Shown here: one piece after another, positions 38,029 through 64,000 of the stretch
Layout of the letters: every line of letters starts with the position of its first letter
How positions within the stretch are numbered: the stretch's first letter is position 1
Source of the DNA: Microbispora catharanthi
Lineage (GTDB): Bacteria; Actinomycetota; Actinomycetes; Streptosporangiales; Streptosporangiaceae
Direction of reading: 5' to 3'
Assembly: GCF_006334915.2 (NCBI RefSeq)
Contig: NZ_VDMA02000002.1
Span: forward strand, 62,001 to 126,000
Length of the DNA: 64,000 bases
Position numbers and translations under genes: made by a program
The notes under the pieces: generated by a model
The model's database searches: none
What the model was told of the DNA's origin: nothing
The model's input: only the letters and a program-made list of their open reading frames with translations

Positions 38029-38112
38029 TCCTGCCCGCCAGGTGAGCACCGGTCCGCCGCAGCGGCACCCCGCCGGCGGGCCGGTCGCCTGCTTTCACCC
38101 GAAAGGTAATCT

Positions 38113-39087: not shown

Positions 39088-39973
39088 CCACGCTCTCCGC
39101 GCCCGCCACCCCGCGGCGGCGCCGCGCCAAGGCGCCGGGAGGTGCCGCCGGCCTCTGGACCGCCACGCCGATGACGAGGCTCGTCCTCGCGGTCACGATC
39201 ATCATCTCGGCGTTCCCGCTGTACTACATGATCGTCATCGCGTCGCGCACCAACACCGAGGCGACCGACATGCCGCCGCCGTTCCTGCCGGGCGGCAAGC
39301 TCGGGGAGAACGTCCAGCGCGTTCTGTCCAACCCCGACGCGCACTACCTGACCGGTCTGACCAACTCGCTGATCATCGCCGCCACGGTGACGGTCTCGGT
39401 GGTGCTGATCTCGACGTTCGCCGGCTTCGCGTTCGCCCGGCTGCAGTTCAAGGGCGGCAAGATCCTGCTGCTGCTGGTGCTGCTGACCATGATGGTCCCG
39501 CTGCAGCAGATGGGCCAGGTCCCCCTCTACCGGCTCATGGTCAGCCTCGAATGGGTCGGCTCGATCAAGGCCGTGATCCTGCCCTTCCTGCTCAACGGCT
39601 TCGGCGTCTTCCTGATGACGCAGTACACCGAGCAGGCCGTGCCCAACGAACTGGTCGAGGCCGCCCGCGTCGACGGCGCCTCCACCCTGCGGATCTGGTG
39701 GAACGTCATCCTGCCCGCCGTACGGCCGGGCATGGGAGTGCTGGGCATCAACACGTTCATGCTGAACTGGAACGAGTTCATGTGGCCGCTGATCGTGCTG
39801 AACCCGGACAACCCGACGGTCCAGGTCGCGATCAACTCGCTCAACGCGAAGTACGGGACGGACTACGTGCTGATCTTCAGCGGCACGCTGTTGTCGATCC
39901 TCCCGCTCATCGTCGTCTTCATCCTGTTCGGCCGACAGATCATCGGCGGACTCATGGAAGGTGCGGTCAAGGC

Positions 39974-39977
<4 letters not shown>
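39084..39977 (+). CDS. cebG: Cello-oligosaccharide ABC permease
   Basis: 297 residues. GTG 39084 overlaps the cebF stop. After a basic start (RRRRAKAPGG) come six membrane segments and the EAA loop VEAARVDGASTLRIWWNVILPAVRPG (about residues 190-215). The C-terminal QIIGGLMEGAVKA is typical of MalG/CebG-type permeases. Long frames beginning earlier are shadows of cebF. It is coupled to bglC by another four-base overlap. Confidence 0.92.
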
Positions 39978-41410
<1,433 letters not shown>

Positions 41411-41438: not shown

Positions 41439-42458
41439 ATGAACGGGGACCGCCGTTCCGGAGGCCGGCCGACTCTGGAAGCGGTCGCCGCACGCGCCGG
41501 GGTCGGCCGCGGCACCGTGTCGCGGGTCATCAACGGCTCGCCCAAGGTGAGCGACCGGGCCCGCGACGCGGTGTTACTGGCGATCCAGGAGCTCGGCTAT
41601 GTGCCCAACCGGGCGGCGCGCACCCTCGTGACCAATCGGACCGACACCATCGCGCTGGTGGTGTCGGAGTCGGAGCAGCGCGTCTTCGACGAGCCGTACT
41701 TCGCCGGGCTGATCCGCGGCATCGGCTCCGCCCTGGCGGAGACCGGCCTCCAGCTCATCCTCACGATGGCGCAGAACCGTGCCGAGCACGACCGGCTGGA
41801 GCACTACCTGACCGGGCAGCACGTCGACGGCGTGCTCCTCACCTCGGTGCACGGCGCCGACCCGCTGCCGGGACGGCTGGAGGAGCTGGGCGTGCCGACC
41901 GTGCTCGGCGGCCGCCCGGTGGGGCTCAACCCGTACAGCTTCGTCGACATGGACAACCGGGCCGGTGCCCGGCAGGCGGTCAAGTACCTGCTCTCCAAGG
42001 GCCGTACCAAGATCGCCACCATCGCCGGTCCGCAGGACATGGGCGTGGGCGTCGACCGTCTCGCCGGATACCGCGACGCGCTGCTGGCCACCGGCATGAC
42101 CGAGCGCGTCGCGTACGGCGACTTCTCCGAGGAGAGCGGGGAGGCGGGCATGCGCGATCTGCTCGCCCGTCATCCCGACCTGGACGCCGTGTTCACGGCC
42201 TCCGACCCGATGGCGGTCGGCGCCCTGCGGGTGCTGAAGGAGCAGGGCCTGGTCGTGCCCGACGACGTCGCGGTGATCGGCTTCGAGGACTCCAAGGTGG
42301 CGCTGCACACCGATCCTCAGCTGACGAGCGTGCACCAGCCGACCGAGGCGATGGGCCGGCAGATGGTCCAGCTCCTGATCGCCCGGATCAACGGCGAGCC
42401 GCTGGAGCAGCCGGTCGTCATCCTCGACACCCACCTGGTGATCCGCGCCTCCGCCTGA
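41439..42458 (+). CDS. cebR: LacI-family cellobiose-responsive repressor
   Basis: 339 residues. HTH at residues 5-58 (TLEAVAARAGVGRGTVSRVINGSPKVSDRAR), hinge helix with RAARTLVT, then the sugar-binding domain (IALVVSESEQRVFDEPYFAGLIRGI, YSFVDMDNRAGARQAVKYLL, DVAVIGFEDSKVALHTDPQLTSVHQP). It lies 28 bp after bglC with AGGGGG upstream of the ATG. The four TGGGAGCGCTCCCA-type sites in the window are the expected targets, two at its own operon and two at the NRPS locus. Codon 46 is TTA, which may tie the repressor to bldA-dependent development. A terminator hairpin follows. Confidence 0.92.
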   Translation: MNGDRRSGGRPTLEAVAARAGVGRGTVSRVINGSPKVSDRARDAVLLAIQELGYVPNRAARTLVTNRTDTIALVVSESEQRVFDEPYFAGLIRGIGSALAETGLQLILTMAQNRAEHDRLEHYLTGQHVDGVLLTSVHGADPLPGRLEELGVPTVLGGRPVGLNPYSFVDMDNRAGARQAVKYLLSKGRTKIATIAGPQDMGVGVDRLAGYRDALLATGMTERVAYGDFSEESGEAGMRDLLARHPDLDAVFTASDPMAVGALRVLKEQGLVVPDDVAVIGFEDSKVALHTDPQLTSVHQPTEAMGRQMVQLLIARINGEPLEQPVVILDTHLVIRASA

Positions 42459-44084: not shown

Positions 44085-47000
44085 TCAGCTGCCGGCGGAC
44101 GAGAGCAGGCGCTCGGCCTCTTCCTCCGACATGTTCTCCAGCTCGGCCACCAGCAGGTCCTCCAGCGCGACCGCCAGCTCGGCCACGGTGCGCCGCTCGA
44201 AGATCGTCCGGACCGGGACCTCCACCCCGGTCCCCCGGCGCAGCCTGGCCGCGATCCTCGTCGCGAGCAGCGAGTGCCCGCCCAGGGTGAAGAAGTCGTC
44301 GTTCACGCCGATGGAACCGACGCCGAGCAGTTCCGCCCAGATCTCGGCCACCAGCAGCTCCGCGTCCGTGCTCGGCGGGACATGCCCGGCCGACGGCGTC
44401 CGGACCGGCGCGGGCAGCGCCGCCCGGTCCACCTTGCCGCGGCTGGTGAGCGGCAGCGCGTCGAGAACGACCCAGGCGGTCGGGACGAGATGGCGCGGCA
44501 GGGTCCGCGCGAGGTGCCCGGCGAGCTCCTCCCCGGTCGCGGTCCCGGTCACGTACGCCACCAGCTCCTCGGCGTGGACCGTCACGAACGCCTGGCCGAC
44601 GCCCGGGTGGTCGAGCAGCCGCGCCTCGACCTCGCCCGGCTCGATCCGGAAGCCGCGGACCTTGAGCTGCCCGTCGAGCCGTCCGAGGAACTCCAGCGCG
44701 CCCTCCTGGTTCCAGCGCGCCCGGTCGCCGGTGCGGTACCTCCGCGATCCCGGCGACCCCAGCGGGTCGGGGACGAAGGCGGCGGCCGTGAGCGCCGGGC
44801 GGCGCAGGTAGCCGCGCGCCACCCCGACCCCGCCGATGACGAGCTCGCCGATCACGCCCTTCGGGACCGGCGCCCCGGCGGCGTCGAGCAGGTGGACCGT
44901 CGTCGCGCCGACGGGCCGCCCGATCGGCGGCCTGCCGTACGGCGTCGCGCCGAGGTCGGTCGCGGTCGCGATGACCGCGGCCTCGGTCGGGCCGTAGGTG
45001 TTCACCAGGCGGACGCCGTCGCCGAACCGGCCGCGCCAGCGCGTGACCGCGCCGCCGGACGCCTGCTCGCCGCCGATGACGACCAGACGGAGCGCGGGCG
45101 GCCAGGCGATCTGGTCGATCTCCTCGACCAGGTGGTGCCAGTAGGCGGTGGGCAGGTCGAGCATCGTGATCCGCTCCCCGCCCGGGGCGGCGAGCAGGTC
45201 GGGGAGGGTCGCCGCCCCGCCCGGCAGCAGCACCAGGGTCGCTCCCGCGGCGAGCGTGGGGAAGACCTCTTCGAGGTGGGTGTCGAAGCTCAGCGACGCG
45301 AACTGGACGACGCGGTCGCCGGGCGCCAGGCCGTACTCCTCGCGCATCCACCGGATCCGGGCCGCGATGGCGCGGTGCTCGACGGCGACGCCCTTGGGCC
45401 TGCCGGTGGAGCCGGAGGTGGAGATCACGTAGGCCACGTCGCCCGGGCGCGTGCCGGCCGGTTCGCCCTGATCGTCGGGGGCCGCATGGTCCTCGCCGCC
45501 CAGCGGGTCGACGGCGGTGAGCCCGGCGGGCAGCGCCCGGGTCGTGATCACGTGTGTGGCCCCGGCGTCCGCGAGCGAGAAGGCCAGCCGCTCCTCCGGC
45601 TCGTCCGGCTCGAACGGCAGGTAGGCCGCGCCGGCCCGCCAGACGGCGAGCAGCGCGCTGATCGCCTCGGCCGAACGGGGCAGGCAGACGCCGACCACGT
45701 CGCCGGGGCGCACGCCCTCCGCCCGCAGCGCCGCGGCGAGACGTGCCGCCCGCCGGTCCAGTTCGCCGTAGGTGATCTCGGTCTCCCCGCAGACCACCGC
45801 GACGGCGCCGGGCGTGCGCCGGACGGTCTCCGCGATCATCTCGGGGACCATCGGTCCTCTGCTGTCCGGCTCCGGGGCGTCGGCGCCGTCGCCGGCCATG
45901 GCACGGATGTCGGCCTCGTCGTCGCCGGTCCAGACGCGCAGCTCGGAGATCCGGCGATGCGGCTCGGCCACGGCCGACTCGAGCAGGAGCAGGAAGCGCT
46001 CGGCGAGCCGTCGGACGGCCTCCGCCTCGTGCGGAGATCCGCTGGACCCGTCGTGGCCGAACGACACGACGATCTCGCCGTCCTCGAACCACGCCTCGGC
46101 GTACAGTCCGAGCTTGACCTGCCGGTACCCGTCGGGGAAGAAGCCGACGGACAGGTCGCCGAACGGCCGGGTGGGCCCCAGGTCCTGGGTGTGCAGGATG
46201 AACATGGTCGGCATCAGCGCCTCGGCGGGGTGCCCGATCCGCTCGAACGGGACCGAAGGCCGGCTCAGCGCCGTCAGCGCCTCATGCCTGATGCGCCCCA
46301 GCAGCTCGGTGAACGACGGATCGCCGTCGAGGTCGCCGCGCAGCACGACGGTCTGCGAGAGGTAGCCGATCATCGGCTCCAGCTCGACCCGGTCGCGGCC
46401 CGCCACGGCCGTGCCGACGAGGACGTCGGTGTGGCCGGTGTGCCGGTTCAGCAGCACCTGGTAGGCCGTCATGAGCACGGTGAACAGCGTGGTCCTGTGC
46501 TCGCGGGCGAGCCGGTCCAGCTCGCCCGCGACCTCCCGGCCCATCCGGACGATCTGGAAGCCCGCGCGCCCCTCGTCACGGATGCCCTCGTCACCGCTGC
46601 CCCCGCTCCCCATGCCGCAGGGCAGGTCGGGCGGCGGCGGATCGGCCAGCCGCTCCTGCCAGTACGGCACCGCGCGCTCGGCGCGGCGGCGCTGCCAGCG
46701 GGCGTAGTCGGACGGCTGGACCGGCAGCGGCGCCAGACTCGGCGCGCGCCCGTGCAGGCGCGCGGTGTAGCACTCCGCCAGGTCGTCGAAGAGGATCCCC
46801 AGCGACCAGCCGTCGCCGATGATGTGGTGCATCGTGACGCACAGGACGTGGTCCAGCGCGCCGATCGCGATGACCGCGACGCGCAGCGGCACGCCCTCGG
46901 CGAGGTCGAACGGCGCGTTCACCCGCTCGGCGACGAGCCGCCGGGCATGCTCCTCGTCGCCGGCCTCAATCCGCTCCACCGGCGGGAGGGACCCCGCCGC

Positions 47001-47225
47001 CCCCGGCGGCTCGGCGACCGCCCAGGGGACGCCGTCCTCCTCGTCGAACCGGGTGCGCAGGCCCTCGTGCCGGGCCACGACGTCGGCGAGGGCCTGTTCG
47101 AGGGTGCCGGTGTCGAGGGGCCCGCGCAGCCGGCGGACGGTGTACATCGTGTACGAGGCGTCGCGGGGATTCAGCCTCTGCAGGAGCCAGAGCCGTTCCT
47201 GGCCCGGCGACAGGGGCGCCCTCAT
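44085..47225 (-). CDS. NRPS module C-A-PCP
   Basis: 1,046 residues. Condensation domain from the start (PLSPGQERLWLLQRLNP; HHIIGDGWS about residues 131-139), adenylation domain about 450-950 (STSGSTGRPKGVAVEHRAI, SLSFDTHLEEVFPTL, NTYGPTEAAV, YRTGDRARW), peptidyl carrier about 960-1030 (DDFFTLGGHSLLATR with the phosphopantetheine Ser). The specificity residues I read by eye are D-T-E-D-V-G-T-V-I-(K); acidic residues at 239 and 278 suggest an amino acid with a positively charged side chain (lysine, beta-lysine or ornithine-like), but this is not certain. No thioesterase. It is the last gene of the operon and starts by ATGA overlap with the gene before. Confidence 0.93.
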   Translation of the reverse strand: MRAPLSPGQERLWLLQRLNPRDASYTMYTVRRLRGPLDTGTLEQALADVVARHEGLRTRFDEEDGVPWAVAEPPGAAGSLPPVERIEAGDEEHARRLVAERVNAPFDLAEGVPLRVAVIAIGALDHVLCVTMHHIIGDGWSLGILFDDLAECYTARLHGRAPSLAPLPVQPSDYARWQRRRAERAVPYWQERLADPPPPDLPCGMGSGGSGDEGIRDEGRAGFQIVRMGREVAGELDRLAREHRTTLFTVLMTAYQVLLNRHTGHTDVLVGTAVAGRDRVELEPMIGYLSQTVVLRGDLDGDPSFTELLGRIRHEALTALSRPSVPFERIGHPAEALMPTMFILHTQDLGPTRPFGDLSVGFFPDGYRQVKLGLYAEAWFEDGEIVVSFGHDGSSGSPHEAEAVRRLAERFLLLLESAVAEPHRRISELRVWTGDDEADIRAMAGDGADAPEPDSRGPMVPEMIAETVRRTPGAVAVVCGETEITYGELDRRAARLAAALRAEGVRPGDVVGVCLPRSAEAISALLAVWRAGAAYLPFEPDEPEERLAFSLADAGATHVITTRALPAGLTAVDPLGGEDHAAPDDQGEPAGTRPGDVAYVISTSGSTGRPKGVAVEHRAIAARIRWMREEYGLAPGDRVVQFASLSFDTHLEEVFPTLAAGATLVLLPGGAATLPDLLAAPGGERITMLDLPTAYWHHLVEEIDQIAWPPALRLVVIGGEQASGGAVTRWRGRFGDGVRLVNTYGPTEAAVIATATDLGATPYGRPPIGRPVGATTVHLLDAAGAPVPKGVIGELVIGGVGVARGYLRRPALTAAAFVPDPLGSPGSRRYRTGDRARWNQEGALEFLGRLDGQLKVRGFRIEPGEVEARLLDHPGVGQAFVTVHAEELVAYVTGTATGEELAGHLARTLPRHLVPTAWVVLDALPLTSRGKVDRAALPAPVRTPSAGHVPPSTDAELLVAEIWAELLGVGSIGVNDDFFTLGGHSLLATRIAARLRRGTGVEVPVRTIFERRTVAELAVALEDLLVAELENMSEEEAERLLSSAGS

Positions 47226-49144
47226 GCGTCCGACGCCATCTCGTCGAGCACGACCGCCAGGTCCTCGGCGCTGAGGCCGTCGAGCTCGTCGCGGAGCGCG
47301 GCGATCTCGGCGAGGTCCAGGTCGTCGTCGTCGAGCCGGTCCATCGCCGCCGCCAGATCGGCCACCGTGGGGTTCTCGAACAGCACCACGATCGGCACGT
47401 TGATCGCGAAGCGCGCCTGGATCCTGGCGATGATCTGGGTGGCGGTCAGCGAGTGCCCGCCCAGCTCGAAGAAGTCGTCGTCGACGCCGACCGGTTCCGC
47501 GATGCCGAGCACCTCCCCCCACATCGCCGCGAGGTCCTCCTCCAGCGGGGTGGACGCGGGCCGGTAAGGCCGGCTCCGCGCGCGAGTCCACTCGGGCACG
47601 GGCAGCGCCTTGCGGTCGAGCTTGCCGTTGGGGGTGAGCGGCAGGGCGTCCAGCACCACGAGGTGCGCGGGCACCATGTACTCGGGCACGTCGCGGCGCA
47701 GCCGGTCACGCAGGGACGGCCACAGGTCGGCCTCCTCGGGCTCCCCGGGCTCCCCGGCCGCGCGTACAACGTAGGCGACCAGACGCGGCAGCCCGTCGGG
47801 ACCGTCGCAGACGCCGACGGCGGCGCCGGCCACCTCCGGCGCGGCCCGCAGCACGCTCTCGATCTCGCCGAGCTCGATCCGGAACCCGCGCACCTTCACC
47901 TGCTGGTCGGCCCGGCCCAGGTAGCGGAGCCTGCCGTTCTCGATCTGGGCGAGGTCGCCCGTGGCGTACAGGCGGGCCCCCGGCGCTTCGGAGAACGGGT
48001 CGGGCAGGAACCTGGCCGCCGTCTGGCCCGGCATGCCGCGGTATCCCCTGGCCAGGCCGGCGCCGCCGATGTGCAGCTCACCGGCCTCGCCGGGCGGCAC
48101 AGGACGCCCGTCGGGGCCGAGGATGTGCACCGTCGTGTTGCCGATGGGCTCGCCCAGGTCCACAGGCGCGGGAGAGGGGGCCACCCGGCCGGCCGTCGAC
48201 CAGACGGTCGTCTCGGTCGGGCCGTACACGTTCCAGAGCCGGGCGCCGCCGTCGAGGAGGGCGTCGGCGAGGTCGCGGGGCAGCGCCTCGCCCCCGCACA
48301 GCCGGGTCGCGACGTTCTCGGGGACCCCGCCGGATTCGAGCAGGATGCGCCAGCTCGCCGGGGTCGCCTGCATGATCGTGACGGCCTCGCTCACGGCGCG
48401 CGACCGCAGGGCGCGGCCGTCCGCCGTCTCGTGCCCGGACGCGACCACCACCCGGGCACCGCAGGCCAGCGGCAGGAGGAGCTCGAGCACCGAGATGTCG
48501 AACGACAGCGTGGTGACCGCAAGCCAGGCGTCGCGCGGGGTGAGCTCCAGCAGGGAGGCGAAGGACTCCAGCAGGTTGACCACCGCGCCGTGCGGCACGG
48601 CGACCCCCTTGGGCCTGCCGGTGGAGCCGGAGGTGTACATGAGGTAGGCCAGGTCGCCCGCGGCGCCGCCGACCGACACCTCGCCGTCGGCCGGCCCGTC
48701 GCCGGACGCCCAGCCCGCGACGGGAACGCCGTCCTGCGTCAGCTCGACGACGTCTGGGACGCCGTCGAGCAGCCGGGACTCGACGCCCTGGCCGGCCAGC
48801 ACCAGCCGGATGCCCGCGTCCTCCCGCATGAACCGGAGCCGGTCCTCGGGGAATCCCGGGTCGAGCGGCACGTAGGCGCCGCCGGCCCGCCACACGGCGA
48901 GCAGGGCGACGACCATGCCGGGGCAGCGCTCCAGGCACAGGCCCACCGGGACCTCCGGGCCGATTCCGCGGGCGCGCAGCAGCGCCGCCAGCCGGTCGAC
49001 CCTGTCGTGCAGCTCCCGGTAGGTCAGCACGCCGCCGGCGCCGCTCACCGCGACCGCGTCGGGGCTCGCGTCACGCCACCGGCGGATCAGCGCGAGCGCC
49101 GTATCAGGGCTGGTCACGCCGCTCACCGCGTCACTCACTTTCAT
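47222..49144 (-). CDS. NRPS A-PCP (predicted glycine)
   Basis: 640 residues. The adenylation domain occupies about 20-540 (MYTSGSTGRPKGVAVPHGAV, TLSFDISVLELLLPL, IMQATPASW, RLCGGEALP, NVYGPTETTVWS, YATGDLAQI) and a carrier domain about 545-610 (DDFFELGGHSLTATQ). The specificity residues D-I-L-Q-L-G-V-V-W-(K) differ in two positions from the glycine code DILQLGLIWK, so glycine is the best guess. It has no condensation domain of its own; the free C protein encoded just upstream could supply it. Acidic C-terminus (LDDDDLDLAEIAALRDEL) may be a docking helix. Confidence 0.92.
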   Translation of the reverse strand: MKVSDAVSGVTSPDTALALIRRWRDASPDAVAVSGAGGVLTYRELHDRVDRLAALLRARGIGPEVPVGLCLERCPGMVVALLAVWRAGGAYVPLDPGFPEDRLRFMREDAGIRLVLAGQGVESRLLDGVPDVVELTQDGVPVAGWASGDGPADGEVSVGGAAGDLAYLMYTSGSTGRPKGVAVPHGAVVNLLESFASLLELTPRDAWLAVTTLSFDISVLELLLPLACGARVVVASGHETADGRALRSRAVSEAVTIMQATPASWRILLESGGVPENVATRLCGGEALPRDLADALLDGGARLWNVYGPTETTVWSTAGRVAPSPAPVDLGEPIGNTTVHILGPDGRPVPPGEAGELHIGGAGLARGYRGMPGQTAARFLPDPFSEAPGARLYATGDLAQIENGRLRYLGRADQQVKVRGFRIELGEIESVLRAAPEVAGAAVGVCDGPDGLPRLVAYVVRAAGEPGEPEEADLWPSLRDRLRRDVPEYMVPAHLVVLDALPLTPNGKLDRKALPVPEWTRARSRPYRPASTPLEEDLAAMWGEVLGIAEPVGVDDDFFELGGHSLTATQIIARIQARFAINVPIVVLFENPTVADLAAAMDRLDDDDLDLAEIAALRDELDGLSAEDLAVVLDEMASDA

Positions 49145-49151: not shown

Positions 49152-50579
49152 TCACTTCGGGAACACGCTCGCGAACGCGCCGCTCAGCGCCGACAGCGGG
49201 ATGTCCGGGTCGGCCCCGGCCCGCCGTACGACCTCGGCGAAGCCGCCGACGAGGCGGCGCGCGGTCGCGGGCGCGAACAGATCGCTGCTGTAGTCGAGGA
49301 CGCCGCCCAGCCCCTCCGGGCCCCGCCACAGGTCCATCGAGACTTCCGACTTCGTGTGGCTGGGCGGGACCGTGTAGACCTCCCGGTCGAGGTCGGCCAT
49401 CCGGGTCCCCAGCAGGTCGTCCTTGGGCAGGTTGTGCAGATTGAACATGGCCTGGCACAGCGGCGGCCTGCTGATGTCGCGGGAGACGCGCAGCGCGGCC
49501 AGGACGTGCTCGAACGGCACCTCCGCGTGCCGCATCCCGGCCAGGGTCGCCTCCCGCACGCGGTCCAGCAGCTCGTGGAACGACGGGTCGCCGGACAGGT
49601 CGGCGCGCAGCACCATCGTGTTGCCGAAGTAGCCGATCAGCGGCGCCAGCTCGCTGCGGGTACGGCCGGCCACCGGCACGCCGATGCAGAAGTCGGTCTG
49701 GCCCGACGCCAGGGCGAGGGTCGCCTGGTAGGCGGCGACCAGGGCCATGAAGGACGTGCAGCGCCGCTTCCTGGCCACCTTCTCCAGCGGCGTGATCTCC
49801 TCCGGCGGCAGCAGCAGGTGCTCGCGCCCGCCGCGCCCGGACCAGCGGTCCGGGCGGGGGTGGTCGGCCGGGAGGTCCAGCGCGGGCGCGCCGGTCAGGC
49901 GGCGCGTCCAGTGCTCCAGGCCCTGCGTGTGGTCCCGCTGTCTCTCCTGTACGGCGAAGCGGGGGTACTGCGTGGGCAGCTCAGGCAGCTCGGGCTCACG
50001 TCCCTCGCGCCCGGCGGCGTAGCACTCCGTGAGCTCGCGCAGGAGCACGTCGAGCGACCAGCCGTCCATCACGATGTGGTGCAGGACGATGCACACGACC
50101 GCGTCGTCCTTGCCCGGCTCGGCCAGCCCGGCCCGCAGGGGAGGCTCGTTCTCCAGGTCGAACGGGCGCTCGACGAACTCCTTCAGCGCCCGGTCGAGGT
50201 CCGCCTCTCCGGAGAGCGCGATCTTCTCCAGCGGCACGGGTCCGGGCGGCAGCACGACCTGCACGGGGGCGTCCCCGCGCAGCCGGAAGCGGGTCCGCAG
50301 CACCTCGTGCCGCTCCACGATCCGGGTGAACGCCGCGGTCAGCGCGTCCACGTCGAGCGGCCCGCGCAGCCGCATGCACCAGGGTGTGTTGTAACTGGTG
50401 TCGCCGGGGTCGAAGCGGCTGAGGAACCACAGGCGCTCCTGTCCCGGCGACAGCGGCCACTCCTGCCCGCCGGGCTCCCGCGCCGCGCCCCCGAGGGAGC
50501 GCAGCAGCGCCGCCCGGCGCTCGGGGGGCAGCCCGGCCAGCTTCTCGATCAGCGCGGCGCGGCGCTCCGCGGTGGTCAT
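49152..50579 (-). CDS. Stand-alone condensation-domain protein
   Basis: 475 residues from ATG 50579. After a short helical leader it is a complete condensation domain: PLSPGQERLWFLSRFDPGDTSYN, LHHIVMDGWSLD with catalytic His (about residues 166-177), FCIGVPVAGRTRSELAPLIGYFGNT, VPFEHVLAALRVSRDISRPPLCQAMF. No A or carrier domain follows. It probably works in trans with the A-PCP protein encoded next (gap of seven bases). The start overlaps the mbtH stop. Confidence 0.9.
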   Translation of the reverse strand: MTTAERRAALIEKLAGLPPERRAALLRSLGGAAREPGGQEWPLSPGQERLWFLSRFDPGDTSYNTPWCMRLRGPLDVDALTAAFTRIVERHEVLRTRFRLRGDAPVQVVLPPGPVPLEKIALSGEADLDRALKEFVERPFDLENEPPLRAGLAEPGKDDAVVCIVLHHIVMDGWSLDVLLRELTECYAAGREGREPELPELPTQYPRFAVQERQRDHTQGLEHWTRRLTGAPALDLPADHPRPDRWSGRGGREHLLLPPEEITPLEKVARKRRCTSFMALVAAYQATLALASGQTDFCIGVPVAGRTRSELAPLIGYFGNTMVLRADLSGDPSFHELLDRVREATLAGMRHAEVPFEHVLAALRVSRDISRPPLCQAMFNLHNLPKDDLLGTRMADLDREVYTVPPSHTKSEVSMDLWRGPEGLGGVLDYSSDLFAPATARRLVGGFAEVVRRAGADPDIPLSALSGAFASVFPK

Positions 50580-50806
50580 CTGTCCCGGGCGCTCAGCGTT
50601 GCCGGGTCGCGTACGCTCAGCGTTTCCGGGTCGCGTGCGCTCAGCGGGCGCATGTCGGTCCACACCGTCTCGATGTGGTCCAGGCATTCCTGCCGCGTGC
50701 CCGCGAAGCCGGTGGCCCGCCACCCGGCGGGCGGCTCGCGGTCGCTCCACCATACGGAGTACTGCTCCTCGTCGTTGACGACCACGAGCATCGGGGAGTC
50801 GATCAT
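50576..50806 (-). CDS. MbtH-like protein
   Basis: 76 residues. The core NDEEQYSVWWSDREPPAGW and FAGTRQECLDHIETVWTDMRP is the complete MbtH signature (two invariant Trp and the S-W pocket). MbtH proteins bind and activate adenylation domains. The family normally ends just after this; the remaining 22 residues (LSARDPET-LSVRDPAT-LSARDR) come from a 24-bp tandem repeat and probably hang free. It starts one base after the upstream gene. Confidence 0.93.
   Translation of the reverse strand: MIDSPMLVVVNDEEQYSVWWSDREPPAGWRATGFAGTRQECLDHIETVWTDMRPLSARDPETLSVRDPATLSARDR
50591..50647. repeat. 24-bp tandem repeat extending mbtH
   Basis: Two full units (50591-50614, 50615-50638) and a partial third, encoding L-S-x-R-D-P-x-T repeats before the mbtH stop. 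In-frame duplication of the gene's 3' end. Confidence 0.8.
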
Positions 50807-50807
50807 G

Positions 50808-52598
50808 TCACCTTCCCAAGACGGTCATTGCGGAAGACGGGGCCCGGCCACCGCCCTCGATCAAGCGGGGACAGGCGGGCCAACCGGCGGGGCCGGCCGG
50901 CGACGCCGTGCACAGGACGTAGTGGTGGGGGGCGAGCACGTCAGTCCGGCCGGCCGCGGCACGCATCACGGCGGCGTGGACGGCCTCGGGCGTGTCCAGC
51001 CCGGGACGCGCGACGAGATACCCGGTCAGCCGGGCCGCGGCCGCGTCTCCGGCGTCGTCTCCGGCGTCCTCCACCACGACCGCGGCGAGGTCGGTCCCGC
51101 ACACCCGGCGCAGCAGCGCCTCGGTCTCCGGCACGTCCACCCAGTCGGGGCCGATCGCCGTCCACCCGGCGGGGCGCAGCACCGGGTCCAGGCCCGCCAC
51201 CTTCGCGACCTGGTCCAGCGGCACCTCCTCGGAGACCGCCCGGACCAGCAGTTCCTCCAGGCCGGTGAGCATCCGCCCGGCGACGTCCCCGGGCAGGAAG
51301 GCCGTGTCCACCAGCACGTAGAACTCGCAGGTGGACGGGGCCGGGCCGGTGGCGAAGAAGATCCTCGCCTTGACCTTCGAGTAGGCGCCGACGAAGAACG
51401 TCCTGGTCCGCTCGCGCAGTGCGGCGAGCGCAGCGGCGTCCCCGGGATCGACCGGCGGCAGGCCCTGCCAGCGGCCCGCCTGCCTGACGTCGTTGAAGAA
51501 CGCGTCCAGGTCGATGTCGGCGCCGCGGTCCCATGCCTCCGCTTCCCACGCGGCCAGCACGAGCGCGGGGTCGTAGTGCCCGTTCCGGTAGGTCGCCATG
51601 GTCCTGCGGTGTCCGTGCCGCAGCGCGTCGGCGAACGTGCCGGCCCCCATCTCGACGACGCACAGCCCGTCCTGGGCTGCGGGCCCGGCCATCGCCTCCA
51701 TCCCCGGGTGGTGCCGGTTCGACACGATGAGCTGCAGCGCCGCCCTGGGGTGCCCGGTGACGGCGGCCAGCAGCGCGGCGCTGGCGACCGTGAGCACGCT
51801 GGAGGTCGTCACGCCGTGCCGGGCGGCGAGCGCCTCGGCGGCGACGGCCACCGCCGGGGAGTCCATCCCGTGCCGGACGAAGCGCGGCTCCTCGGGTTCC
51901 CTCGTCGGGAAGTCGAACATCGAACGCGGGGCGGACGCCAGCCCGGTCCGCCAGTGCCGCAGCGCCTGGCCGCCGGGCGGCGGGTCCGACCGCTCGGAGG
52001 CCGCCTGGTCGAGCGGCTGCCAGCCCGGGCCGGGCAGGTCCTCCCCCGCGACCAGCCGCGGCCACTCCGCGGCCACCATGTTCAGCGACCAGCCGTCGAG
52101 CGCGAGATGGGACAACGCGAGCGCCAGCGCGCGCGGCCGGCCCCTCTGGCAGACCACCGCGCACCGGATCGGCAGCTCGGCCGCGTAGTCGAACCCGGTC
52201 GCGGCCAGCTCGGCGGCCAGCGCCTTGGCCGCGCTCATCGGCTTGGCCGCCGCCTCGTACACGCCGACCGTGAGCCGGCCCTCCCGGCTCACCCGCTGGA
52301 CCGTGTTCTCCCCGGTACCCTCGCCGTTCCGGACGAACGCCGTGCGCAGCGTCTCGTGCCGCTCGACGAGACGGCCCACCGCGCGCAGCACCGCGTCCAG
52401 GCCGGCCGCGCCGGTCACCGGCAGGGTCCAGGCCAGGTTGAAGTAGGGGTCGCCGTCGTCCAGCCACTGCGTGGAGCGCCAGATCCCCTGCTGGCCCCAG
52501 GTCAGCGCGGCCTGCCCGCCCCGTGCGCCGCGGAACTCCACGGTGCGCGGCGGCAGCGCCGTGAGACCGGTGACCTGCGCCGGCGGGCTCGTAGTCAC
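50808..52598 (-). CDS. Condensation-domain protein with residual adenylation C-subdomain
   Basis: 596 residues from GTG 52598. Residues 25-460 form a condensation domain (LTWGQQGIWRSTQWLDDGDPYFNLAW; active segment ALSHLALDGWS, where the first His of HHxxxDG is Ser but the catalytic second His is kept). The last about 110 residues look like an A-domain C-subdomain (VPETEALLRRVCGTDLAAVVVED, RLTGYLVARPGLDTPEAVHAAVM, HHYVLCTASPAGPAG), but the large ATP-binding subdomain is entirely missing and the catalytic Lys region is not seen. It may be a fossil of a C-A protein or a docking surface. It overlaps the ACP stop (GTGA). Confidence 0.82.
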   Translation of the reverse strand: MTTSPPAQVTGLTALPPRTVEFRGARGGQAALTWGQQGIWRSTQWLDDGDPYFNLAWTLPVTGAAGLDAVLRAVGRLVERHETLRTAFVRNGEGTGENTVQRVSREGRLTVGVYEAAAKPMSAAKALAAELAATGFDYAAELPIRCAVVCQRGRPRALALALSHLALDGWSLNMVAAEWPRLVAGEDLPGPGWQPLDQAASERSDPPPGGQALRHWRTGLASAPRSMFDFPTREPEEPRFVRHGMDSPAVAVAAEALAARHGVTTSSVLTVASAALLAAVTGHPRAALQLIVSNRHHPGMEAMAGPAAQDGLCVVEMGAGTFADALRHGHRRTMATYRNGHYDPALVLAAWEAEAWDRGADIDLDAFFNDVRQAGRWQGLPPVDPGDAAALAALRERTRTFFVGAYSKVKARIFFATGPAPSTCEFYVLVDTAFLPGDVAGRMLTGLEELLVRAVSEEVPLDQVAKVAGLDPVLRPAGWTAIGPDWVDVPETEALLRRVCGTDLAAVVVEDAGDDAGDAAAARLTGYLVARPGLDTPEAVHAAVMRAAAGRTDVLAPHHYVLCTASPAGPAGWPACPRLIEGGGRAPSSAMTVLGR

Positions 52599-52828
52599 TT
52601 CCGCTGCCCCGCGATGTGCTCGACCAGGCCGTCGAGCGTGTCGAGGTGGCCGCCGTCCAGGTCGACGTCGCAGTCGAACTCGGTCTCCAGCAGGTCGATC
52701 AGCCGGAGGTAGGCGATCGAGGTGAGGCCGAGCGCGGGCAGGCTGCAGTTCGCCGCCAGGATGTCGGCGACGGTCAGGTCGCCGCCGCTCGCCTTCGACA
52801 CCAGCTCGGCCACGCGCTCCCTCAGCAC
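52595..52828 (-). CDS. Free-standing acyl/peptidyl carrier protein
   Basis: 77 residues. Four-helix carrier fold with the attachment site in LPALGLTSIAYLRLIDLLE (Ser about residue 37) and an acidic helix 2/3 (ETEFDCDVDLDGGHLDTLDG). It probably receives an acyl or aryl group activated by the AMP-dependent ligase encoded two genes upstream. GTG start overlaps the stop of the C-PCP gene by seven bases, with GGAGGAG immediately before it. Confidence 0.88.
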   Translation of the reverse strand: MLRERVAELVSKASGGDLTVADILAANCSLPALGLTSIAYLRLIDLLETEFDCDVDLDGGHLDTLDGLVEHIAGQRK

Positions 52829-54408
52829 GTCTCCTCCCGCAGGCGGGCGACCTCCGCCGCGATCCCGGCGATCGTCGGCTCGTCGAAGAACACGTCGAAG
52901 GACAGCTCCACGTCCATCCGCTCGCGCACCTTCGCGATGATCTGCGTGATCGACAGCGAGTGCCCGCCGAGGTCGAACAGGTCCTCGTCCGGACCGATCT
53001 CCGGCATGCCGAGCACCTCGCGCCAGATCTCGCCCACCTCCGCGAGGTACGGCACAGCGTCCGCCTCGCCGGCCCGTGCCGAGGGGGCCGGCTCCCCGGC
53101 CCGGGCGAAGGACGGCTCGACCACGCCGTCGACCACCGGGGACGGCAGCGGCAGGTCGGCCACGTCGGCGTCCGGAGCGGCGGCCAGCGCCCGCAGCAGG
53201 GCGAGCAGGTCCTCGGCGACGGTCTCGCAGCCCGACCGGCCCAGGACGAGCGGGTTGAACTGCAGCCGGGCCGCGACGCCGTCCGGCGCGTCGACCACCT
53301 GCAGGTGCAGCGTGCCGCGCACCGCGTGGTTGAACGACATCCAGTCCACCGACGCCTCGACGCCGGGGAACTCCGGCGCGCTCCCGTCACGCCTGCGGTA
53401 GCTGACCGACACGGGCGTCAGCGCGGTGCGCGGGCTCACGCCGCCGACCGCACGCGCGAGCGGCACCTCCCGGAACCGGTACGTGGCCCGCAACTCGTCG
53501 CGTACGGTGTGGGCGAACTCGGCGAACGTCCCGCCGGGTGCCGGGGCGGGCACCGGCAGCTCGTTCACGAACAGGCCGATGTGGCCCCGCGTCTCCTCGG
53601 TCCTGGTCGACAGGTCGACGGCCACCGCCGCGTCCTCGTTGCCGTACGCCGCGAGCAGGGTGTGCACGGCGGCGAGCACCAGCTCGAACCGGGTGACGCC
53701 CATCTTGTCCGCGGCGACGGCGAGATCGGCGGGAAGCGCGAAGTCGACGGCGTCGCCGTCCGCCGCGCGGGTCGAGACCCCGGACAGCCCGGGCAGTCGC
53801 AGGTCCTGCCGGTCCTGCCAGCGGCCGCGCCAGAACTCGGCGGCGTCGCCGAGCAGCTCGGCCACCCGGGCGTTCTCCCGCTCGACGGCCTCGCCGTAGG
53901 TCAGGGGAAGGGCCGGCGACGGCAACCCGGCGTAGGCGCCGGCCAGGCCGCGCACCAGGATGTCCTTCGACATGCCGTCGAAGACGGCGTGGTGGGCGAC
54001 GAAGACGAGCAGGTGCCGCTCCGGCGCGAGCCGGAACACCGTGAACCGGGCGGTCGGCCCGGTCCCCAGGTCCAGGGCGAGCGACGCCTCCCGGTCGACC
54101 AGCTCGCCGGGCTCACGCCCTGCGTCCTCGAACCCGGAGGCGTCCTCGAACCCGATCGGCGGCGGCACGGCGGCGGGCACCAGGCGCACCACGCCGTCCC
54201 GCTCCGCCAGGGCCGAGGCCAGCTGGGGATGCGCGCGGACCACGTCGTGGCAGGCCGCCAGCAGCCGGTCCACGTCGAGGGGGCCGTCGAACCGGATGGC
54301 CAGCGGCATGTGGTACACCCGGCCCCCGCAGCCCATCTGCTCCGTTATCCACATGCCGTGCTGTGCGAGGGACGCCTGCTCCCCCTCGTCGATGAGTGTC
54401 GGTGACAT
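52822..54408 (-). CDS. NRPS C-PCP didomain without adenylation domain
   Basis: 528 residues. Condensation domain about 10-430 (SLAQHGMWITEQMGCGGRVYHMP, FVAHHAVFDGMS about residues 137-148) and a carrier about 445-520 (DEDLFDLGGHSLSITQIIAKVRE). There is no A domain between them, so its carrier must be loaded in trans. A short duplicated segment (GFEDAS-GFEDAG, residues about 87-98) is encoded by an 18-bp repeat (54122-54157). It follows the ligase gene by one base. Confidence 0.9.
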   Translation of the reverse strand: MSPTLIDEGEQASLAQHGMWITEQMGCGGRVYHMPLAIRFDGPLDVDRLLAACHDVVRAHPQLASALAERDGVVRLVPAAVPPPIGFEDASGFEDAGREPGELVDREASLALDLGTGPTARFTVFRLAPERHLLVFVAHHAVFDGMSKDILVRGLAGAYAGLPSPALPLTYGEAVERENARVAELLGDAAEFWRGRWQDRQDLRLPGLSGVSTRAADGDAVDFALPADLAVAADKMGVTRFELVLAAVHTLLAAYGNEDAAVAVDLSTRTEETRGHIGLFVNELPVPAPAPGGTFAEFAHTVRDELRATYRFREVPLARAVGGVSPRTALTPVSVSYRRRDGSAPEFPGVEASVDWMSFNHAVRGTLHLQVVDAPDGVAARLQFNPLVLGRSGCETVAEDLLALLRALAAAPDADVADLPLPSPVVDGVVEPSFARAGEPAPSARAGEADAVPYLAEVGEIWREVLGMPEIGPDEDLFDLGGHSLSITQIIAKVRERMDVELSFDVFFDEPTIAGIAAEVARLREETC

Positions 54409-54409: not shown

Positions 54410-56004
54410 TCACTTGCCTTCCGTCGTGCTGATCACGGAGTCGCCCAGCAGCGCGGGCAGCTCCTTCTTGATGACCTTGCCTGACTGGTTCCTGGGCAGG
54501 CTGTCGACCACGAGGACCCGTTCGGGCAGCTCGTGCCAGGCCAGCCGGTCCATCAGGAAGGCGCGCACCTCGCTCTCCGACAACCCGAGGCTTTCCGACA
54601 ACCCGGGGCTCTCCGACTGTCCCGGCGACCGCGGCGAGCTGGGCACGACCGCGGCGCCCAGCACGGAGCCCAGCACCGGATGCGGGAGCCCGAACACGGC
54701 CGCCTCGGCGATCCCCGGGTGCTCGTGAAGCGCGGCCTCCACCTGGAGCGTGGACACCTTGAACGCGCCGGTCTTGACCACGTCGCTCTCCCTGTCGACG
54801 AGGTAGAGGTAACCGTCGGCGTCCACGTATCCGACGTCGCCCATGCGCACCCAGCCGTCGCGGAACGACCGGGCGCTGGCCTCGGCGTCGCCGTAGTAGG
54901 ACCGGGTGGCGGTGGGCGACCGCATCCACACCTCGCCGGTCTCCCCGGGCGGAAGCGGGTTGCCCTCCTCGTCGGTGATGCGCAGCGAGCCGCCGAACGC
55001 GGGCCGCCCCAGCGCGGCCGGCCGCGTCCGGTCGTAAATCATGATCGTCTGGGCGGGGGCGGCCTCGGTGGACGTGTAGTAGTTCGTCACGGTCGCGTTC
55101 GGGAAGGCCACCGACAGACGTTCCGACAGGGCGGGGGGAAGCGCGGCCGCCGCCGACCCCAGCAGCACCACGCTGGACATGTCGTGCCGCTCGTGCAGCC
55201 CGGCGTCGAGCAGCTCGATCGCCATCGAGGGCACCAGGAACACCGTGCCGGGACGGTAGGTCTCGATCAGCCGGGCGAACCGGCCGGGCGTGAACCTCGC
55301 CGGGGTCAGCACGGTCGGCCGGGCGTCCAGCGCGTTGATCAGCATGGTCTGGCCGGCGTTGGTGCCGATCGGGAAGGCGTGCAGCAGGTGGCGCGAGTGG
55401 GCGAACCTGCGGTGCTTGGGCTGTGTGACGCACCCGTAGGCCAGGTTGGCGTGGCTCGCGCCGACCCCCTTGGGCCGCCCGGTCGTGCCGGAGGTGTAGA
55501 GGATCTGCGCCAGGTCGCCGGGCCGCACCCGCGGTCCTTCCTGCGCCGTCTCCGCCCCGAAGCCGGCTTCCAGCTCCGCCGGGGTCGCGGTCCACGGCTC
55601 CCCGGCCCTCTCCACCGGCCCCGGTCCCGACGGCGCCGTGAGGTCCCGGCCGAGCAGCACCGCCGACGCCGCGCAGTGCTCGATCATGTAGCGCAGCTCG
55701 GCGGGCGCCAGCCGGTCCGACATCGGCACGGCCACCGCGCCCGCCTTGAGCACCCCGAAGAACGCCACGGCGAAGTCGATCCAGTCGCGGCTGCCGAAGT
55801 GCAGCGCCACCCGGTCGCCCGGGGCGACGCCCCGGTCCGCCAGCCCGGCGGCGAGCGCCGCCGACCTGCGGTCCCAATCGGCGAAGGTGAGCGTCCCGTG
55901 CCCCTCCACGATCATCGCGACGCCGTCCGGTTCCTGCCCTGCGCGCAGCCGCAGCAGCTCCGGCACGGTGAGCGCGGGCGCGCCCCGCGTCCTCGTCGTC
56001 CCCG

Positions 56005-56008
<4 letters not shown>
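54410..56008 (-). CDS. AMP-dependent acyl-CoA/acyl-ACP ligase
   Basis: 532 residues from ATG 56008, overlapping the stop of the large NRPS gene. ANL-family motifs: LYTSGTTGRPKGVGASHANLAYG (A3), NYYTSTEAAPAQ (A5), RMGDVGYVDADGYLYLVDRESDVVKTGAFKV (A7-A8) and PRNQSGKVIKKEL with the catalytic Lys near residue 517. It activates a carboxylic acid, and the free ACP two genes on suggests it loads a starter acid on a carrier rather than making free CoA ester. Neither chain length nor aromaticity can be read from sequence. Confidence 0.9.
54573..54626. repeat. 18-bp tandem triplet inside the ligase gene
   Basis: Units 54573-54590, 54591-54608 and 54609-54626 encode repeated SES(L/P)GL in the flexible C-subdomain surface of the ligase. 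The period is exactly 18 bp, in frame. Confidence 0.8.
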
Positions 56009-61590
<5,582 letters not shown>

Positions 61591-61798: not shown

Positions 61799-61851
61799 TG
61801 GGAACGCTCCCACGGCAGTGGAGGCTAGGGATCACTGCTTTCGTTCGTCAA
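61799..61851 (-). promoter_or_regulatory. NRPS operon promoter with CebR box
   Basis: Reading the minus strand, TTGACG (61851-61846), an 18-bp spacer and TAGCCT (61827-61822) form a good -35/-10 pair. Nine bases further is TGGGAGCGTTCCCA (61812-61799 on the minus strand; TGGGAACGCTCCCA on the plus strand), one base from a perfect CebR box. The repressor would sit on the initial transcribed region. The leader to the NRPS GTG is about 220 bases and contains no gene. Confidence 0.75.
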
Positions 61852-61964
61852 GTGTCATGGAAGTTTCTGTCCGTTATTAGCCCCAAGGCGGGGAATGTGA
61901 GGTTATTGCCGCAGATCACGGACAATGCGGTCGTAATCTCCCAAATTCGCCATATGGCCAGGGA

Positions 61965-62010
61965 TTGACAGAGCTTCTTACCGCACCTACCCTCCGTGGG
62001 AGCGCTCCCA
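61965..62010 (+). promoter_or_regulatory. E1 operon promoter with perfect CebR box
   Basis: TTGACA (61965-61970), a 17-bp spacer and TACCCT (61988-61993) form a strong vegetative-type promoter. The perfect operator TGGGAGCGCTCCCA occupies 61997-62010, three bases after the -10, so it covers the start of transcription. A hairpin GACAGGA-tgc-TCCTGTC (62011-62027) follows directly. The pairing of a consensus promoter with a consensus operator is the strongest regulatory signal in the window. Confidence 0.85.
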
Positions 62011-62134: not shown

Positions 62135-63058
62135 GTGATCGTCACCGCTGCACCGCCCCGGAGCCCGCGGCATGCCCTCAACGACGGGGATCTCCGCTCA
62201 CTCCTCCTCATCCGGCACTTCGAACGCGCCCTGCTCCGCCTGTTCGAGCAGGGCGTGCTGAGCGGCACCACCCATACCTGCCTCGGGCAGGAGTACATCC
62301 CGGTCACGCTGTCGGCCCTGCTCCGCGACGACGACTTCGTGTTCAGCAACCACCGGGGGCACGGCCACTTCCTCGCCCGCCATCCCGACCCGCACGGCCT
62401 GCTCGCCGAGATCATGGGGCGGGAGGGCGCCCTGTGCGGGGGAGTCGGCGGCAGCCAGCACATCTACCACCGGCGTTTCCTGTCCACCGGCGTGCAGGGC
62501 GAGAGCCTGCCCGTGGCGACCGGGGTGGCCTTGAAACTGGCCGGCACGGGAGCGCTGGCCTGCGCGTACATCGGAGACGGCACCTGGGGCGAGGGCGCCG
62601 TCTACGAAGCGCTGAACATGGCGTCCCTCTGGCGGGTGCCGCTGCTCGTCGTGGTCGAGCACAACGGCATCGCCCAGTCGACCCCCACGTCCGCGCAGAT
62701 GGCCGGCACGATCGCCGCCCGGGCGGCGGCCTTCGGCGTCCGCCACCACCACGTCACGTCCACGGACGTCGGCGAGATCAGGGACGCCCTCGCCCCGCTG
62801 GTCGACGCCGTGCGGGCCGAGCCGTCCCCGCTGGTCGTCGAGTTCGCCACGCACCGCCTCGGACCGCACAGCAAGGGCGACGACACCCGCCCGCCGGAGG
62901 AGATCCGCCGGGCACAGGAGTCCGACTGGTACGACCGGCACGCCGAGACCGATCCCGAGCGGTTCGCCCGGCTCGACCGGGAGCAGCGAGAGCTCGTCGA
63001 GCGGGTGGTCGCCGAGGTCTCCGCCCGGCCCCTCTCCCGGCCGGGAGGAGCGGCGTGA
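62135..63058 (+). CDS. 2-oxoacid (pyruvate/acetoin type) dehydrogenase E1 alpha subunit
   Basis: 307 residues from GTG 62135 (AGGAG 11 bases before). The thiamine-diphosphate/magnesium site is intact: YIGDGTWGEGAVYEALNMASLWRVPLLVVVEHNGIAQST (GDG...N, about residues 145-180). Other landmarks are FSNHRGHGHFLA (His for catalysis), GGVGGSQHI and THRLGPHSKGDDTR (phosphorylation-loop region). It decarboxylates a 2-oxoacid; length and sequence resemble acetoin/branched-chain E1 alpha, and the substrate is not certain. The frame is open to ATG 62054, but that extension lies in the repeat leader. The start of E1 beta overlaps the end. Confidence 0.88.
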   Translation: MIVTAAPPRSPRHALNDGDLRSLLLIRHFERALLRLFEQGVLSGTTHTCLGQEYIPVTLSALLRDDDFVFSNHRGHGHFLARHPDPHGLLAEIMGREGALCGGVGGSQHIYHRRFLSTGVQGESLPVATGVALKLAGTGALACAYIGDGTWGEGAVYEALNMASLWRVPLLVVVEHNGIAQSTPTSAQMAGTIAARAAAFGVRHHHVTSTDVGEIRDALAPLVDAVRAEPSPLVVEFATHRLGPHSKGDDTRPPEEIRRAQESDWYDRHAETDPERFARLDREQRELVERVVAEVSARPLSRPGGAA

Positions 63059-64000
63059 CCAGGGTCTCCGAGCACCTCAACCAGGCGCTGCACGATCTCA
63101 TGGAGTCCGACCCCTCGGTCCACCTGCTCGGCGAGGACGTCAGCGACCCCTACGGCGGCGCGTTCAAGGTCACCCGGGGACTGTCCGGCCGGTTCGGCTC
63201 CCGCGTGAGGTCCACGCCGCTGAGCGAGGGCGCGATCGCCGGGGTCGGGGCCGGGCTGGCCCTGGCCGGCGACAAGGCCATCGTCGAGATCATGTTCGCC
63301 GACTTCGTGGCGCTGGCGTTCGACCAGATCACGAACTTCGCCGCCAAGTCCACCTCGATGTACGGCAGGCCCGTGCCGGTGCCGCTCGTGGTGCGCTGCC
63401 CCACGGGCGGCAACCGCGGCTACGGCCCGACCCACAGCCAGAACCCGCAGAAACACTTCATCGGCGTGCCGGGGCTGTCCCTGTTCGAGATGACGCCGTT
63501 CCACGACGCGGGCGAGCTGTTCTCCCGGATGTTCGGGCTCGGCCGACCCTGCCTGTTCTTCGAGGACAAGGTCCTGTACACGCGGCAGATGTACCGCACG
63601 GACGACCTGTTCCGGTTCGAGCTGGTGGACGACGTGGCGCGGGTGTACCTCGACGGCGCGGGCCGTCCCGACTGCACGCTGGTCACCCATGGCGGGCTCG
63701 TCCACCGGACGCTCGACGCCATGCGGGCGCTGCTCCTGGAGGACGACCTAATCTGCGAGCTGCTGGTGCCCGCCCAGCTCTACCCCGTGCCCCACCTGCC
63801 GGGACTGGAGGACGCGCCGCACGTCTGCGTCGTGGACGACGGAACCGAGGGCGGCACCTGGGCGGCCGAGGTGGCCACGGCGCTCTACCCGCGCCTGTGG
63901 GGCCGCCTGCGCCGCCCGATCACGCTGATCAACTCGGCGGACGGGGTGATCCCCGCCGCCCCCCATCTGGAACGCGAGGTGCTCGTGCAGGCCGACAGCA
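63055..64000 (+). CDS. 2-oxoacid dehydrogenase E1 beta subunit (runs off the window)
   Basis: At least 315 residues from GTG 63055, which overlaps the E1 alpha stop and has GGGAGGAG upstream. It reads TRVSEHLNQALHDLMESDP, LLGEDVSDPYGGAFKVTRGL, the conserved TPLSEGAIAGVGAGLALAG and PVPLVVRCPTGGNRGYGPTHSQ, and ends in the transketolase C-domain (CTLVTHGGLVHRTLDAM, VCVVDDGTEGGTWAAEV) that is almost complete at the right edge. Alpha2beta2 heterotetramer with the preceding subunit. An E2 or lipoyl gene may follow outside the window. No stop was seen. Confidence 0.9.
   Translation, partial: MTRVSEHLNQALHDLMESDPSVHLLGEDVSDPYGGAFKVTRGLSGRFGSRVRSTPLSEGAIAGVGAGLALAGDKAIVEIMFADFVALAFDQITNFAAKSTSMYGRPVPVPLVVRCPTGGNRGYGPTHSQNPQKHFIGVPGLSLFEMTPFHDAGELFSRMFGLGRPCLFFEDKVLYTRQMYRTDDLFRFELVDDVARVYLDGAGRPDCTLVTHGGLVHRTLDAMRALLLEDDLICELLVPAQLYPVPHLPGLEDAPHVCVVDDGTEGGTWAAEVATALYPRLWGRLRRPITLINSADGVIPAAPHLEREVLVQADS

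Follow-up and report, generated by a model that had tools for sequence, protein, structure and literature searches.

A thaxtomin-type pathway comprises the nonribosomal peptide synthetases (NRPSs) TxtA and TxtB, with the activator TxtR and a P450. In Streptomyces scabies the thaxtomin NRPS genes txtA, txtB and txtR are described as controlled by the repressor CebR, with boxes reported at -899/-900 of txtA, at -786 of txtR and at +1507 in txtB (PMC5332605, PMC12527672). CebR of this organism is reported to bind the cebE and bglC boxes, and cellobiose and cellotriose to inhibit the binding (PMC4890002). The bglC box has one mismatch, and the txt boxes are imperfect too, for which the authors propose weaker repression (PMC5332605). 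The same 14-mer is described at cellulase and cellobiose-transporter promoters of the CelR regulon in Thermobifida and other actinobacteria; this 2012 paper also gives CelR sites near pyruvate dehydrogenase-related genes in Streptosporangium roseum and a mirum site within a PKS gene, but its main text contains neither 'peptide synthetase' nor 'nonribosomal' (0 matches; PMC3377646). The rotihibin NRPS cluster of S. scabies likewise responds to cellobiose, which raises its enzymes, but the effect is reported as cebR-independent and is also given by glucose (PMC8552735), and several S. scabiei clusters are described as having a cellobiose response without a matching response to cebR deletion (PMC8914351). 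Titles and abstracts in the open-licence literature gave no report of CebR or CelR boxes at NRPS genes outside thaxtomin producers.

The locus described here lies in the window, by which we mean the whole 64,000-nucleotide stretch of Microbispora catharanthi DNA that was analysed. Our best reading is that it resembles thaxtomin control, with a probable LacI-family cellobiose repressor, a 14-bp palindrome and an NRPS pathway tied to the cellulolysis regulon, but that the boxes act on the core promoters of a different NRPS: they stand at the expected start points of the NRPS and E1 promoters, and the NRPS layout differs from that of thaxtomin. The Microbispora host is not known as a plant pathogen. 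Below, G denotes a genome (G000 being the own genome), L a locus and C a contig of the own genome; genes were called by a home-made script, and their starts are approximate.

A scan of the window bore out the earlier note on this DNA, which had placed exact copies of the palindrome at 61997-62010 and twice at the ceb operon and a one-mismatch copy at 61799-61812. Its description of two good promoters, each overlapped by a box and diverging from one another, holds as well, since each box lies at the expected start point of a TTGAC promoter (hexamers identified by eye), one promoter leading into E1-E2-beta-glucosidase genes and the other into a nine-gene NRPS operon. The elements are as follows.

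61997 to 62010, no strand: putative perfect CebR/CelR-type operator TGGGAGCGCTCCCA of the E1 promoter (sequence; invariant in alignments)
61799 to 61812, no strand: putative one-mismatch operator TGGGAACGCTCCCA of the NRPS promoter, reading TGGGAGCGTTCCCA towards the NRPS operon
61965 to 61970, plus strand: -35 TTGACA of the E1 promoter (sequence; GATTGACA invariant across 3 genera)
61988 to 61993, plus strand: -10 TACCCT of the E1 promoter, 17-bp spacer (sequence)
61846 to 61851, minus strand: -35 TTGACG of the NRPS promoter (sequence; GTCAAG invariant across 3 genera)
61822 to 61827, minus strand: -10 TAGCCT of the NRPS promoter, 18-bp spacer (sequence; GGAGGCTA invariant across 3 genera)
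36423 to 36436, no strand: perfect box, distal, of the ceb operon (window scan)
36543 to 36556, no strand: perfect box, proximal, of the ceb operon (window scan)

Both promoters were called by eye as good sigma-70-type promoters. By eye, the E1-side box starts 3 bp after its -10 and the NRPS-side box 9 bp after its own, so that the two would cover or touch the expected start points; the 14-mer and its one-mismatch form thus stand at promoters, as in a CebR/CelR regulon. As proof against chance the window scan is uninformative (9 matches at up to 3 mismatches, 8 expected), so we assessed chance from exact sites in the whole genome and across the family.

The own genome, 9.25 Mb in 68 contigs, contains 14 boxes that match exactly and 7 with one mismatch. 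Base composition predicts 0.13 exact boxes in 9.25 Mb, and the reversed-pattern control gave 0. At up to one mismatch the 21 sites compare with 4 control sites; the one-mismatch box alone is weaker evidence, but it is conserved. Among 61 genomes, one per sampled genus of Streptosporangiaceae, 334 exact sites were found against 2 control sites, so nearly every exact site is likely to be real; 43 of the 61 have any.

For the most part, the other boxes of the genome outline a cellulolysis regulon. They lie ahead of GH6-CBM2, GH9 and GH48-CBM2 genes (GH48 having one perfect and one one-mismatch box), an AA10 LPMO gene (one mismatch), a gene for a Cip1-like secreted protein (Pfam score below the cut-off), the ceb operon and, with one mismatch, a second ceb-like operon. 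There is also a perfect box at a second NRPS (NRPS2, contig C4), which has the same unusual C-A-T-TE-MFS layout as the first NRPS of the window, and a one-mismatch box ahead of a free condensation protein gene on C11. The nine condensation-domain matches of the genome fall in five loci, three of which are boxed; the two condensation-domain loci on C3 have no box at up to 2 mismatches within 16-kb stretches. Four perfect boxes are without an obvious cellulolysis promoter: L004 (between gene ends), L007, L008 and L013:5001. A GGDEF-EAL gene is found near a perfect box in two genera (L007:5001-7409, with the box before the gene, and L205; likeness by eye), and a HATPase gene follows a perfect box by 17-20 bp, also in two genera (L008:6514-7014 and L212:3523-4014; likeness by eye). 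Signalling genes seem to be part of the regulon.

The genes that would be controlled from the divergent promoters, and those of the ceb operon, are listed next; domains are from a profile scan.

56005 to 61590, minus strand: NRPS C-A-T-TE with a fused MFS transporter domain, first gene of the operon
54410 to 56008, minus strand: free-standing AMP-forming ligase, best matches acyl-CoA ligase models, below their cut-offs
52822 to 54408, minus strand: NRPS C-T
52595 to 52828, minus strand: free-standing carrier protein (PCP), 77 aa
50808 to 52541, minus strand: free-standing divergent condensation-domain protein
50576 to 50806, minus strand: MbtH-like protein
49152 to 50579, minus strand: free-standing condensation domain
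47222 to 49144, minus strand: NRPS A-T
44085 to 47225, minus strand: NRPS C-A-T
62135 to 63058, plus strand: E1 alpha (PF00676), 307 aa, below the cut-offs of the PDH equivalog models
63055 to 64000, plus strand: E1 beta, 325 aa, cut by the window end
36682 to 39977, plus strand: likely cebE, cebF and cebG, named by position and sequence
40019 to 41410, plus strand: GH1 beta-glucosidase of the ceb operon
41439 to 42458, plus strand: cebR, LacI-family repressor and probable regulator (profile scan; match to 5ysz_A)

Condensation, adenylation, carrier and thioesterase domains are all present, as in an NRPS natural-product cluster, and the minus-strand order is C-A-T-TE-MFS, AMP-forming ligase, C-T, PCP, free C, MbtH, C, A-T and C-A-T. 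The adenylation-domain codes, taken by eye, are DILQLGVVWK (47222 gene), DFTKLGHVGK (56005 gene) and DTEDVGTVIK (44085 gene), which we take, as leads only, to be Gly-like, Asx-like and perhaps basic, respectively. An MFS domain fused behind the thioesterase occurs in two NRPS proteins, at 56005-61590 of the window and at L050:619-6138, both behind CebR-type boxes. An isonitrile chalkophore was considered and dropped: TauD, an acyl ligase and a carrier protein had suggested it, but their genes lie on different contigs.

Past the window end the E1 operon continues with the rest of E1 beta, an E2 (412 aa; lipoyl and catalytic domains) and a GH1 beta-glucosidase, and a perfect box at window position 66965 lies ahead of an aldose-epimerase gene, followed by an APH-type kinase gene. 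The scores depart from those of a housekeeping pyruvate or 2-oxoacid dehydrogenase: E1 alpha reaches 183.5 bits against an NCBIfam cut-off of 393.85, E1 beta 145.8 against 321, and E2 150.3 against 449. The canonical E2 catalytic motif is DHRxxDG; in this E2 (L002:6029-7267) the motif is DHRFING. The E1 alpha, E1 beta, E2 and free carrier protein are the parts expected of a two-carbon unit of the NapB/NapD type. In the dnacin relatives of naphthyridinomycin NapB/NapC/NapD the sizes are given as 306 aa (DinU), 76 aa (DinT, an ACP) and 754 aa (DinS) (PMC7570522), and here, where E1 beta and E2 are separate and the likeness is one of gene content and size, the E1 alpha of 307 aa, the carrier of 77 aa and the E1 beta of 325 aa plus E2 of 412 aa correspond. 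The profile scan of the nine NRPS-operon genes and six plus-strand genes gave no KAS III, so the unit is not filed as a member of the NapB/NapD type but only as probably working like one. Elsewhere, a related E1 gene adjoins KAS III and ACP genes (G204), and carrier-protein genes of 76-90 aa lie beside related E1 genes. The S. roseum 'pyruvate dehydrogenase' sites may well belong to this E1 operon type and, as reported in the main text of that paper (PMC3377646), would be the nearest earlier sighting.

The earlier note had proposed a search for the boxes at orthologous loci as a check. Both are present in all 12 orthologous Microbispora loci and in three more genera, so the absence that the note named as refuting its idea did not turn up. 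By a cluster-specific protein, the nearest named relatives are Microbispora in 9 of 11 loci (76-92% identity), and an orthologous E1 alpha occurs in 12 of 15 Microbispora genomes (89-100% identity). The two boxes are 198 bp apart in 11 of the Microbispora loci and 199 bp in one; outside the genus the distance is 198 bp in G019, 197 bp in G360 and G421 and 200 bp in G075. In G029 a box pair 199 bp apart lies between an NRPS operon and a CopC gene, and in G088 a divergent NRPS/E1 pair retains the NRPS-side box only. The spacing of 197-200 bp, kept in five genera (Microbispora, G019, G360/G421, G075 and G029), made looping a candidate, but other NRPS loci are spaced at 207, 211, 175, 166 and 125 bp, and we therefore make no looping claim.

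In an alignment of 13 loci from 2 genera 184 or 185 bp separate the boxes in all rows, and the two leaders vary from 195 to 223 and from 57 to 157 bp. The perfect box is invariant in these 13 loci and in 5 loci of 3 genera. In other Microbispora the intergenic region shares 79-95% identity with the own one; across the three genera identity falls to 50-62%, with 14 of 14 and 12 of 14 positions of the two boxes invariant and invariant runs of at least 6 bp only in the two boxes, both -35 hexamers and the NRPS -10. What has survived unaltered from genus to genus is the boxes and the core promoters. Of 21 boxes linked to NRPS or E1 genes and listed by hand, 15 have TTGAC in the 50 bp upstream and 2 have it on the other side; shuffling gives 0.75.

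The gene order E1 alpha, E1 beta, E2, beta-glucosidase, box, epimerase, kinase is kept in all 10 extended Microbispora loci, but the gap between E2 and beta-glucosidase is about 0.6-1.4 kb in three of them (L240, L247, L248), so that co-transcription cannot be the general case; the top E2 match in L247 spans 237 residues only. All 14 Microbispora orthologues of NRPS2 have the box, and the free C protein retains one in only 5 of 12 Microbispora loci. In the sampled genomes of the family, NRPS genes with a perfect or one-mismatch promoter box occur in ten genera by handle (G000 and its genus, G019, G029, G064, G068, G070, G075, G081 with G360 and G421, G088 and G095). Three other genera bring cebR and such genes together: G070, where E1 alpha, E1 beta and an orthologue of the C4 locus (NRPS2 63%, TauD 75%, glycosyltransferase 44%) adjoin cebR; G088, where a window-type NRPS cluster directly follows the ceb operon; and G036, where a free C protein gene adjoins cebR. 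The E1 enzymes of this kind are not bound to box control: at up to 2 mismatches, the fetched stretches show no box at related E1 genes in G002, G036, G029, G018, G017, G204, G316 and others, nor at second E1 copies in Microbispora. A search of 394 sampled genomes of the class placed the close E1 alpha family (E 1e-60 or better) in 16, of which 14 belong to Streptosporangiaceae. In G064 (L285:1180-6225) a GH5-CBM2 cellulase gene stands behind a perfect box; codirectional condensation-domain genes come after it, and a variant box precedes the first of these.

The NRPS-facing boxes are often the same imperfect variant, TGGGAGCGTTCCCA. The mismatch in the S. scabies txt boxes is a different one. 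In the own genome the variant has only two sites, both at NRPS genes, and in the 61 genomes it has 36 sites against 1 control. We counted the nearest gene on either strand within 600 bp, using condensation, carrier and MbtH profiles, which were built from proteins of the same clusters. An NRPS-type gene was found at 17 of the 36 variant sites and at 4 of 76 perfect sites (Fisher p 4e-7; the two samples come from partly different genomes, and related genomes are not independent), and at 2 of the 14 own perfect sites. With the nearest gene only, the counts are 15 of 36, 4 of the 76 in the perfect sample and 1 of 14 own perfect sites (p 5e-6). Within G000 and G064 together the variant scores 7 of 7 and the perfect box 5 of 30 (p 8e-5), or 4 of 30 by nearest gene only (p 3e-5). 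The perfect sample consists of 76 sites in listing order, 75 among the matches listed (13 genomes; the last, G064 C37:287684, lies in L153) and one G070 site. At variant matches L291 and L292 the E1 gene is closer than the NRPS gene, and the own E1-side perfect box counts as NRPS-facing within 600 bp because its minus-strand neighbour is the NRPS gene. At the remaining 19 of the 36 variant sites the box faces some other gene or no gene at all, and not every NRPS box is the variant: that of NRPS2 and some others are perfect.

The best candidate regulator is CebR, the predicted product of 41439-42458. As in the CebR/CelR regulon, a cebR orthologue lies in a ceb operon with boxes of its own (the permeases being named by position only, and the likely cebE binding protein having no NCBIfam match). 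The protein matches PDB chain 5ysz_A, which we take to be Thermobifida fusca CelR, with 407 bits, and the helix stretch GVGRGTVSRVINGS is identical in the two; the same stretch occurs in the CebR proteins whose genes adjoin NRPS, E1 or free C genes in G070, G088 and G036. Two LacI paralogues are encoded in the own genome. One, on C10, is 53% identical to CebR and lies in the second ceb-like operon, which has the one-mismatch box TGGGAGCGCTCTCA; the other, on C68, is 44% identical, and perfect boxes stand 24 bp upstream of its gene and some 1.5 kb downstream of it. The regular expression used for the LacI helix did not catch all paralogues, that of L140 being among those missed. A LacI-type protein resembling the C68 paralogue by eye (L013:5001-7526) stands behind perfect boxes in five other genomes (L190, L195, L209, L216, L224), and a MscL gene lies near the C68-like LacI gene in the own genome (Pfam) and in L224 (by eye). 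The C68-like protein is possibly a second reader of the box.

Some or all of the boxes might thus be read by the C10 or C68 paralogue in place of CebR, and TGGGAGCGTTCCCA may be the paralogue's site; the inducer may then be a different beta-glucan sugar. The kinship of the two proteins with CebR, the TGGGAGCGCTCTCA box, the perfect boxes flanking the C68 gene and the enrichment of TGGGAGCGTTCCCA at NRPS promoters would all fit, but of the proteins compared it is the window CebR that has the GVGRGTVSRVINGS of 5ysz_A, where the C10 paralogue reads GVSRATVSRVVNG, and it is cebR itself that adjoins NRPS genes in the three other genera, so that we consider a paralogue in this role quite unlikely.

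The boxes could instead serve sugar metabolism through the E1-E2-beta-glucosidase operon only, the NRPS genes being constitutive or otherwise controlled, as might be suspected from the perfect box on the E1 side, the mismatched one on the NRPS side and the carbon-metabolism genes downstream. The NRPS-side box is conserved across genera with its -35 and -10, though, and G088 has kept it alone; boxes also face NRPS genes that have no divergent E1 (L155, L156, L152, L153, L203, L223), NRPS2 among Microbispora always has its box, and this restricted role is very improbable. That the palindromes arose by chance and were kept because related genomes are too young to have diverged has a negligible probability: the high intergenic identity within Microbispora would allow it, but the boxes hold their positions where identity between genera has fallen to 50-62%, and exact sites vastly outnumber controls in the 61 genomes.

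We return to CebR on a double promoter. The reading of the window as a cellulolysis-linked natural-product locus is supported by box conservation, the cellulolysis regulon and the LacI match, and we put at roughly 0.83 the probability that the double promoter has two CebR operators, that CebR represses it, and that cellobiose releases the NRPS, E1-E2 and beta-glucosidase genes together with the cellulases. Without cello-oligosaccharides, CebR would occupy both boxes and block transcription; cellobiose made by the cellulases and imported by CebEFG would free CebR from them, and the NRPS enzymes, the E1-E2 complex and the intracellular GH1 beta-glucosidase would then be made alongside the cellulases. 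Rather than acting in primary metabolism, the E1-E2 proteins most likely supply the NRPS in the manner of NapB/NapD, by charging a carrier protein with a small acyl unit. We infer this role from their divergence from the PDH models, the free 77-aa carrier, the carrier and KAS III neighbours of related genes and the sizes published for proteins of the NapB type. By using up the inducer, the beta-glucosidase would limit the response in time.

A further reading is that Streptosporangiaceae hold a dedicated cellobiose-gated NRPS pathway, with TGGGAGCGTTCCCA as its own operator subclass, its own release threshold and a product serving cellulolysis. Its parts would be the NRPS, the free condensation proteins, the NapB/D-like E1-E2, TauD and the glycosyltransferase; in Microbispora these would be spread over two or three loci, and in other genera they would lie with cebR. 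We regard it as doubtful; if true, the product might, for example, bind copper for LPMOs or protect the sugar that is released. Copper is suggested by two loci, G029 (L301:3512-4975), in which a CopC gene and an NRPS operon have a common double-box promoter, and G019 (L055:7547-9333), in which CopC and CopD genes lie downstream of E1-E2 and a chitinase gene; a link between copper supply, LPMOs and the peptide is possible.

The known case of a CebR-controlled NRPS is that of a plant pathogen, where such control looks like a virulence adaptation. Here the same operator is conserved on the core promoters of a different NRPS family, in ten sampled genera of one family of soil actinomycetes, and a new finding, the bias towards TGGGAGCGTTCCCA, gives a testable idea of why NRPS promoters so often carry one particular imperfect operator. 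Growth on cellobiose or deletion of cebR would be a simple recipe for waking these clusters. From sequence, Microbispora and several related genera appear to keep a peptide gene cluster under the same sugar-sensing repressor as their cellulases, so the peptide is probably made during the digestion of plant fibre, and this suggests that the coupling of peptide synthesis to cellulose breakdown is wider than one pathogen.
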